A stretch of 10,579 nt of DNA from Smittium mucronatum (Eukaryota; Kickxellomycota; Harpellomycetes; Harpellales; Legeriomycetaceae). A model generated the notes under the pieces. That model did no database searches. It worked only from the letters and a program-made list of their open reading frames with translations, and had not been told where the DNA came from. This document shows, one piece after another, positions 2,653-8,813 of the stretch. The first letter of the stretch is position 1. Every line of letters starts with the position of its first letter. The stretch lies in contig LSSL01000482.1 of the NCBI GenBank assembly GCA_001953115.1, forward strand, positions 21,952 through 32,530. Direction: 5' to 3'. Position numbers and translations under genes: made by a program.

Positions 2653-3180
2653 TTTATATGGTAAAAAATACTGAAATTAAAAAATATATATCTAAATTTT
2701 TTTTAAGTTGTAAATAAAACCATTGTGCATTATTTTACATGATACCCCGAAATAAAAATATTTTCCTATCATAAAACTCAGAATAAATTAATATCTTGTA
2801 GAAAACAACGCTTTTAATCTTCCAAAAAAGCATAAGTTTTTAGGAAGAGAATCCAGATGACTTAATTATGTCTTAGATTGATGATTTTTATCTAAACTGA
2901 GCAGAATAAATTTATTAGAAAATTACCCGAAAGAATTTATTGCATAAATTTCCAAATAGCTTACAAATATAATAGCTTTATCATTGATACAAAGCATATT
3001 TAGAATCTTATTTTTATTAACTAGTGTTTAAATAAATTTGGGGTCATATTAAGTGATATTATACCATTTAAATAAATCATCTCAAATTAAAGGATAAAAA
3101 AACTTCAATATAAAATTAGAATAAATTTCCTAATTTTTACAATGAAAAACCATTTTATTATCAAACGAGTAAAAAAAAAA

Positions 3181-3438
3181 GGTAAAAATATTAACATCAC
3201 TAAAATCTTGCATAAAAAAACAGAAATCTGACATATATCACTAAAATTAGCATTTATAGCTAAAATCTACCATTCACCGCATTTTTCACAACTAAAATTT
3301 GTGCTTCATCACAAAAAAATTATTGATTTATTTATTGGACAAATTTTCAAAGATTGTTTCTTTTTAGGAAATTCGATTAATTTTGCCTTATTGCGCGATA
3401 TATATATGGATATGATTCTTGACAGTGATATAAGAGAC
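3181..3438 (+). repeat. Left terminal inverted repeat of the foldback element
   Basis: This arm is the reverse complement of 4298-4552 with scattered mismatches and few indels. It includes a 40-base block (3322-3361) that matches the right arm perfectly, and a TTGCGC box (3391-3396). A CTAAAAT-type motif begins at 3200, 3241, 3260 and 3292, with a degenerate copy at 3312, mostly preceded by CA or TCA. Similarity to the other arm stops after AGAGAC at 3433-3438. The outermost 15-20 bases are less alike than the interior, so the exact outer edge could lie slightly inward, near CATCAC at 3195. Confidence 0.85.
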
Positions 3439-4297
3439 AAATTTCCAATATAATTTAGTTTAAATTTATCTTGTAAGCATTCAAAAAAAAATTAAAGAAA
3501 TGAAAATTTATAGAAGATTTTCAACATTCCCTTTATTGTTGCGAAGAACATTGATACTAATAGCTTTTGAACTTATTTGGGAGGATGAAATATCCTTTTA
3601 TAGTGCAAAAAAGCTAAAAGGATTATGATGATTGTACTTATTGGTATTATCTAAAAATCTAGAATGTGAATTTACAAAAAAAATGAAATAAGGATCAAAT
3701 TTTGTTTTATCAATAATTGAGTTGACCTTCTAGAAGAATTTCAACCATTTTTCGACTATCATACATCTCATTTTTTATAATCCAAAACCATACCATTATT
3801 TTTCTATATGTTGTGACATAATATTATATGATAGAAATTAGTTCAGCTTATCAGTCTCCATAGTTAAAATGCCTAATTAATCCACTAAAAACCGGAATAA
3901 CTATTTAAACATTCTCTAAAAACTTGAAATAAATTCTAAGTGCTATTAAAATACAATCATGTAAATTTTTGGTGAATTTAAATTGCATCATGATCTTTAA
4001 AAAATAAAATAAAATCTCTGTTATTCTTTAATTATTAAATGTGAAGTGATTATAAGAGTTTCAAAAAAGATTATATATTATTTATAGTGGGACTAACATG
4101 ATATTTATTACGCCATTTAGTACATATACTATTCGATTTTATTAAATATTTAGGTAAAAAATGTTTGAACCTAATTTCACCTTTTATAGATGACTGGGTG
4201 CTGTTGATTTTTATGAATATATACCTATGATTTTATTTCGAGTTTTTTAGGTTGTAATTATTATTTTCCTTTATAAAAATCTGCAGTGAGATTGATA
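3439..4297. other. Internal unique region of the foldback element
   Basis: About 860 bases of A/T-rich sequence between the two TIRs, with stops in every frame and no transposase motif that I can see. It may be a deletion remnant of an autonomous element or captured filler DNA. Confidence 0.6.
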
Positions 4298-4552
4298 GTC
4301 TCTATTACTGTCAAAAATAATATCCATCTAATATTGCGCAATAAGGCAAAATCCATCGAATTTCTTAAATAGAAACAATCTTTGAAAATTTGTCCAATAA
4401 ATAAATCAATGATTTTTTTAGTGTTGAAGCTCAGATTTTAGTGGCCAAAAATGTGGTGAATGGTAGATTAAAGTGATAAGTGTTAAATTTTAGTGATAGT
4501 GTCAGATTTCGGGTTTGCTATGCAAGATTTTAGTGATGACAAAATGCTAACC
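4298..4552 (-). repeat. Right terminal inverted repeat of the foldback element
   Basis: Read on the minus strand, this arm repeats the left one. The perfect 40-base block lies at 4371-4410. The C starting each CTAAAAT-like motif lies at 4533, 4493, 4473, 4441 and 4421, which are offsets 20, 60, 80, 112 and 132 from the right end. These match the left-arm offsets to within one base. This arm keeps the CACTAAAA core in copies where the left arm has decayed, and the reverse is true for the third copy. Confidence 0.85.
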
Positions 4553-4584
4553 AAAAAAAAAAATATATATATATATATATATAT
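4553..4584. repeat. A11 tract running into an (AT)11 microsatellite
   Basis: Eleven A (4553-4563) abut the right end of the foldback element and continue into a pure AT dinucleotide run to 4584 (the last A starts the dinucleotide phase). The left end of the element has a matching A10 (3171-3180). This could be an A-only target duplication, a preference for poly-A targets, or slippage at the insertion edge. Confidence 0.8.
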
Positions 4585-6115: not shown

Positions 6116-6126
6116 GGGGGGGGGGG
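6116..6126 (+). repeat. Poly-G run (11 G)
   Basis: Eleven consecutive G between TT and TTAAAT. Runs this long are very unlikely by chance in DNA this A+T-rich. It could form a G-quadruplex between strands or be a slippage-prone mononucleotide microsatellite. Confidence 0.9.
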
Positions 6127-8799: not shown

Positions 8800-8813
8800 G
8801 GGGGGGGGGGGGG
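8800..8813 (+). repeat. Poly-G run (14 G)
   Basis: Fourteen consecutive G following TTAGA and followed by TTTAAG. It lies on the same strand as the G runs at 1-10 and 6116-6126. The function is unknown; it could mark an old element edge or be a simple mononucleotide expansion. Confidence 0.9.

Follow-up and report, generated by a model that had tools for sequence, protein, structure and literature searches.

A foldback-like family with long terminal inverted repeats, probably of Mutator-like origin, in the genome of Smittium mucronatum

The stretch of DNA analysed here (the window) comprises 10,579 nucleotides of the genome of Smittium mucronatum, an insect-gut fungus (Kickxellomycota, Harpellales), and corresponds to C384:21952-32530 of the searched assembly. 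Between positions 3181 and 4552 it contains two long arms that are inverted copies of each other, which raises the question of whether they are the ends of a mobile element and, if so, to which group of transposons it belongs. Based on the data described below, we consider the feature to be, with a probability of roughly 0.88, an old, degenerate copy of a non-autonomous, foldback-like family of Mutator-like DNA transposons with long terminal inverted repeats (TIRs).

Arms, ends and interior of the window copy

The left arm (3181-3438, plus strand) and the right arm (4298-4552, minus strand) were compared by global alignment after reverse complementation of one of them. Over about 255 bp, 219 identities, 34 mismatches and 7 gap positions were found, and the score of 169 compares with a mean of -17.7 (sd 6.3, maximum 2.5) in 300 single-base shuffles, which bears out the co-linearity over the full arm proposed in a preliminary description of this locus. 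A repeat search resolved the arms into collinear inverted blocks at 3313-3401/4331-4419 (93%), 3243-3319/4414-4490 (81%) and 3181-3233/4500-4552 (81%). The perfect block of 40 bases reported earlier was recovered as the longest exact match between the arms (3322-3361, plus strand); a 38-mer of it occurred once per strand, and none of 200 dinucleotide shuffles gave two matches.

The outer limits of both arms were placed by alignment and family consensus, with the tip GGTAAAAATATTAACATCACTAAAATC on the left and, as reverse complement, GGTTAGCATTTTGTCATCACTAAAATC on the right. Each is flanked by ten A (3171-3180 and 4553-4562), assigned as target site duplication (TSD) with a length of 10 bp set on the family; because it sits in poly-A, this duplication is uninformative for the window copy itself. 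Within the left arm, about five degenerate copies of an iterated ATCACTAAAATCT-like motif were recognised by eye on the plus strand of 3196-3321, starting near 3196, 3237, 3256, 3287 and 3307. The motif recurs in the family consensus, a 19-bp tandem pair is present in the other arm at 4472-4509, and these motifs are candidate transposase-binding sites.

The interior (3439-4297) is non-coding according to an ORF scan and comparison with the family, whose copies carry it in either orientation relative to the tips. As had been stated before, it lacks coding content: no ORF of at least 60 aa was found there, the longest stop-free stretches being 53-54 aa. Longer stop-free stretches of 81 and 67 aa exist in the interior of the family consensus, neither of which reached the Pfam cut-off. 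Searches of the window for Rfam matches and for tRNAs (ARAGORN) were negative.

A dispersed family with 10-bp target site duplications

The searched assembly (73.8 Mb, 2957 contigs) is probably a part of the published one, for which 102.35 Mb and 26.05% GC are given in the sections of the genome paper used here (PMC5954228). Searched with 3181-4552, it yielded at least 40 places including the window (40 of 87 candidates scored), and one arm alone gave 144 candidates, 40 of which were scored, so that copy counts are lower bounds. The copies are here called family A; the long ones among the matches listed are mostly 71-79% identical to the window copy. From an alignment of 20 copies a consensus of 1,400 bp with TIRs of 262 bp was derived; its arms are 96% identical over 255 bp, and the copies show about 73-92% identity to it. 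Copies L010 and L011, which represent the same insertion, both entered this consensus. Contigs C2120 and C363 bear one and the same insertion, the flanks being nearly identical on the left as well as on the right; C1569 starts inside the element and continues into the same right flank. Since L011 duplicates L010 and L046 has the same right flank, the scored places amount to at most 38 insertions. L010, L011 and L046 (C2120, C363 and C1569) may be assembly duplicates, haplotypes or a segmental duplication.

Flanking sequences were then compared in the 15 of the 40 scored copies of which both ends could be aligned. Identity of the 10-bp flanks was 0.827, as against 0.462 for re-paired flanks (z 7.2), and none of 5000 re-pairings reached 0.827. 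L011 was dropped from the second and third tests and the window copy (L009) from the third; without this duplicate and the poly-A copy, 13 copies still gave 0.800 versus 0.446, again with 0 of 5000 re-pairings. When lengths from 4 to 15 were compared, the second best was 12 (z 2.3), and 8, 9 and 11 gave no signal. Besides the window copy, 7 of the 15 copies have a perfect 10-bp TSD, six of them independent (L010, L013, L015, L019, L022 and L031, all informative); in two of the 15, L017 (0.2) and L018 (0.4), the duplication is absent. No empty site was found when the joined flanks of the 15 copies were compared with the loci extracted in this analysis.

The arms are thus repeated elsewhere in the genome, and the dispersal over at least 40 scored places, the sharp ends and the 10-bp TSDs identify a mobile foldback/MITE-like element.

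A transposase-bearing family with the same tips

A search with a 35-base TIR pattern returned 37 places, and some of the contigs concerned had no match to family A. Two loci from the latter, L073 (C534) and L074 (C705), are 77-78% identical to each other in blocks of 762 and 858 bp, and their likeness to family A is limited to roughly the outer 140 bp of the TIR. They belong to a second family, B, which shares the tip and roughly these outer 140 bp with family A and has a decayed Mutator-like (MULE) transposase in its interior. Antisense frames of L073 and L074 contain a CxC...CxH stretch with a basic tail behind it, which looks SWIM-like by eye; the Pfam SWIM model stayed below its cut-off even in the intact frame of C583 (13.9 versus 19.6 bits), and the MULE domain was not seen by Pfam in the L073 and L074 pieces.

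Genome searches with this C-terminal stretch and with PF10551 (MULE) gave at least 145 matches (150 of 270 candidates scored) and at least 147 matches (150 of 232 scored), respectively. Of the 145 matches listed for the C-terminal stretch, 29 are situated 513-662 nt downstream of a same-strand PF10551 match, and at 5 of the 37 tips the stretch lies 897-1684 nt inward of the tip with its strand pointing at the tip. None of these five tail-bearing, tip-linked B contigs is among the PF10551 matches listed (150 of 232 candidates scored). L075 (C1925) is a family B element of about 3 kb with both ends. In a genome search for family B, whose query begins 21 bp outside the left tip at L075:1436, 11 of the first 14 rows (51 candidates, 40 scored) contained the C-terminal stretch on the same strand, two of these (C1925 and C534) being the query loci themselves. 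C583 carries an open frame of 363 aa with PF10551 at 38 bits (cut-off 27.6), which in a search against 19 kb aligned with L074 (7e-20), L073 (6e-14) and L075 (2e-6); a protein search with this frame returned one relative, at 34% identity.

A direct connection between the two families was seen at the tips. Out of 61 family A ends, 8 were matched best by the 29-nt left tip of the B copy C1708, at 25-29 of 29 positions and at all 29 in L031; an earlier scoring with a 34-nt left tip composed from family A and B tips had given 9 ends. Family A is tied to MULE transposases by B-type tips at A ends, the alignments of the PF10551-bearing C583 frame, and the tail stretch in B copies. An intact MULE partner with the same tips was not found in the searched assembly, and none of the copies found combines the family A interior or the full 262-bp TIR with an encoded transposase; the transposase searches of the genome used MULE-type queries. 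The family B frames examined are interrupted by stops, and as all three examined B copies are decayed, the family is probably no longer mobile. The TSDs of seven further B copies are mostly ambiguous, C1173 being the only one with a perfect direct repeat of 10 bp close to its ends. Derivation of family A by plain internal deletion from the sampled MULE or family B copies was considered and rejected, as its interior gave only short and weak matches to these loci.

On these grounds family A probably owed its past mobility to Mutator-type enzymes with genes elsewhere in the genome. A MULE-type transposase would have recognised the family A TIRs in trans, perhaps via the iterated ATCACTAAAATCT motifs, and transposition would have been by cut-and-paste, the target being cut with a stagger of 10 bp.

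Classical MITEs are commonly under about 0.6-0.8 kb. The preliminary description of a foldback/MITE element holds in that family A is mobile, non-coding, TIR-bearing and dispersed in many copies; its consensus of 1,400 bp is too long for a classical MITE. It is for this reason that we name the element a non-autonomous long-TIR MULE, on account of its 262-bp TIRs, its 10-bp TSDs and an outer TIR and tip shared with family B and its decayed MULE transposase sequence. It also falls into the structural class of foldback elements, since the TIRs occupy 2 x 262 of 1,400 bp (37%) and contain an iterated motif.

Family A is a new family of a known kind of transposon. According to the parts of a survey of long-TIR MULEs used here (PMC6446971), TIRs of such elements are commonly hundreds of bp long, a DDE transposase is encoded, a SWIM zinc finger occurs in some groups and TSDs measure 8-11 bp. 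The Smittium family resembles them in its long TIRs and in a TSD within this range, and differs in that an autonomous copy was not found here; Smittium has no occurrence in the main text of that survey. Closest in organisation is Tm1, a Mutator/Foldback family of root-knot nematodes which, as far as described in the sections of PMC3169594 used here, has composite long TIRs, asymmetric outer tips and iterated internal motifs, and comprises non-coding MITE-like members beside members with a MULE-domain transposase, as do families A and B. Unlike the Smittium family, Tm1 has a TSD of 9 bp, the tips CGGTTAA/CCTACCC, a tandem motif of 13-15 bp and a nematode host (PMC3169594, same sections), compared by description only with a TSD of 10 bp, the tips GGTAAAAAT/GGTTAGCAT, the ATCACTAAAATCT motif and a fungal host. 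No earlier description of family A was apparent in the open-licence PMC literature on foldback MULEs, Harpellales, the species and foldback recombination, judged mostly from titles and the starts of abstracts, and to this extent the label "undescribed" given to the element at first fits. The family would add a foldback-type Mutator family to the Harpellales, an order of insect-gut fungi.

Flipped interiors, possible hairpin RNA and other explanations

The two tips of family A are asymmetric (GGTAAAAAT and GGTTAGCAT), which allows the orientation of the interior to be scored. Among the 40 scored copies, 28 gave no decisive call at both tips; the remaining 12 were divided 9 to 3 between the two orientations (the nine include the duplicate L011), and none of the 12 carried two equal tips. 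The B-type left tip at eight family A ends was likewise found on either side of the interior (six left, two right). In a tree of 35 interiors, 25 of them labelled, at least seven changes of orientation were required, five of which were forced by well-supported branches. These labels include copies called at a single tip and leave out the weakly called L030, L032, L033, L037 and L045, and L011 was not on the tree. Eight changes resulted when the weaker calls were added and a minimum of three when only the 11 copies called at both tips were used; the five weakly called copies kept their orientations on later scoring with the 34-nt composite left tip. Orientation labels cluster on the tree no more than shuffled labels do.

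Because asymmetric tips flank the interior in either orientation, with repeated changes on the tree, these comparisons point to recurrent recombination between the arms as the simplest account. Repeated exchange between the two arms would have inverted the interior and may also have kept the arms alike. Tip exchange between copies is a possible alternative, and the data are compatible with flips before as well as after insertion.

Arm similarity could be evaluated in the 26 of 39 rows with enough arm columns. Here, 294 departures from the consensus are to the same base in both arms, as against about 60 expected for independent arms by a crude estimate. The left arm matched its own right arm at 0.834 and the right arms of other copies at 0.751, and the own right arm was the closest of all arms in 11 of 26 cases. 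This is suggestive, and both within-copy conversion and inheritance from diverged source copies would fit it. A more far-reaching and, in our judgement, rather doubtful idea is that the long arms serve for recombination in place: after insertion they would repeatedly recombine with and convert each other, so that the interior flips as an invertible cassette between tips that always remain one of the left and one of the right type, and siRNA against the transposase-bearing family, with which TIR ends are shared, might come from the same hairpins. With the flipped interiors, in-place recombination of long inverted arms becomes a testable question in a fungal genome.

The preliminary description had also suggested that a transcript across the element could form a stem between the arms. 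This agrees with the predicted minimum-free-energy fold of 3181-4552, a single long arm-arm stem of -428.3 kcal/mol, a value given without shuffle control for a sequence of more than 1000 nt. A single Piwi-domain match was found in the assembly, and the frame of 871 aa around it (5' end open in the fetched piece) matches 'Protein argonaute-3 [Smittium mucronatum]' with 100% identity. This match led to the rejection of a microsporidian as host, and for a nematode host an exact search for the SL1 spliced leader gave 0 matches. Of four RNase III matches in the assembly, two share a frame of 2,549 aa. An Argonaute and a Dicer-like protein are thus likely present, so that hairpin RNA could feed RNAi, and a role of the arms as small-RNA source is possible. 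The locus might then be a hairpin that the host maintains for producing siRNA against MULEs rather than just a dead transposon. The long predicted stem, the RNAi genes and the greater likeness of arms within than between copies would suit such a locus; the copies are, however, degenerate and scattered, and the likeness of their arms can stem from the source element, which makes this explanation improbable.

Still less probable is that the arms are the inverted repeats of a DIRS-like (tyrosine-recombinase) retrotransposon, of which the 1.4-kb element would be a non-autonomous derivative. DIRS elements do have inverted repeats, and at L066:4444-8895 two family A arms spaced by 4.45 kb enclose, in place of the A interior, the degenerate relic of a retroelement with a reverse transcriptase match (RVT_1, 36 bits). 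Stretches resembling RNase H and a tyrosine recombinase, DIRS-like by eye only, reach close to these arms. However, L066 is the single such case, and the other four pieces of this locus had no Pfam match above the cut-off. Neither C2173, the best other reverse transcriptase match (60%), nor the reverse transcriptase loci L069-L072 showed an element match in flanks of at most 1.5 kb, a partial test given that the L066 arms lie 1.5-2.1 kb from the reverse transcriptase. Family A has TSDs, and DIRS elements are not known to make 10-bp TSDs; family B, moreover, links the tips to a MULE transposase. DIRS termini were therefore rejected as a general explanation, and the arrangement at L066 may represent nested insertion or capture.

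Mobilisation of a foldback element by another superfamily (P/Galileo-like, hAT or Kolobok) appears similarly remote. TSDs of P elements measure 7-8 bp and those of hAT elements 8 bp, and Kolobok duplicates TTAA, whereas the TSD of family A is 10 bp and MULE transposase remnants lie inside elements with the same tips. A foldback structure did arise in the P superfamily with Galileo of Drosophila, which, in the sections of PMC3573991 used here, resembles the Smittium family in its long, internally repetitive TIRs. Its authors propose there that long TIRs attract recombination and conversion; unlike in family A, the transposase is of the P superfamily, and TIR extension and chimeric copies, not flipped interiors, are described (PMC3573991, same sections). 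Least probable of all is a local inverted duplication or assembly artefact at this single place, which the draft contig and duplicated stretches in the assembly (both flanks of C2120/C363, right flank of C1569) might suggest but which is ruled out by copies dispersed among other flanks and by their sharp ends and 10-bp TSDs.

Apart from the non-autonomous MULE family, remains of other elements were observed. At least 147 PF10551 matches and at least 150 matches to the L066 reverse transcriptase indicate a decayed load throughout the genome, despite a published repeat ratio of 2.94%; as this value was obtained by fungal RepBase masking and tandem-repeat finding according to the sections of PMC5954228 used here, the decayed transposon load is probably largely uncounted. 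Neither "transposable" nor "transposon" occurs in the main text of that paper. In the window itself, a short minus-strand frame at the contig end (10442-10577) contains GVYVPGLASRIPDLPFADDAALLAKS and by eye resembles the FADD region in the reverse transcriptase of non-LTR retrotransposons, for which Pfam gave no support in the adjoining 93-aa ORF. Finally, runs of 10, 11 and 14 G are located at 1-10, 6116-6126 and 8800-8813 of this AT-rich region.
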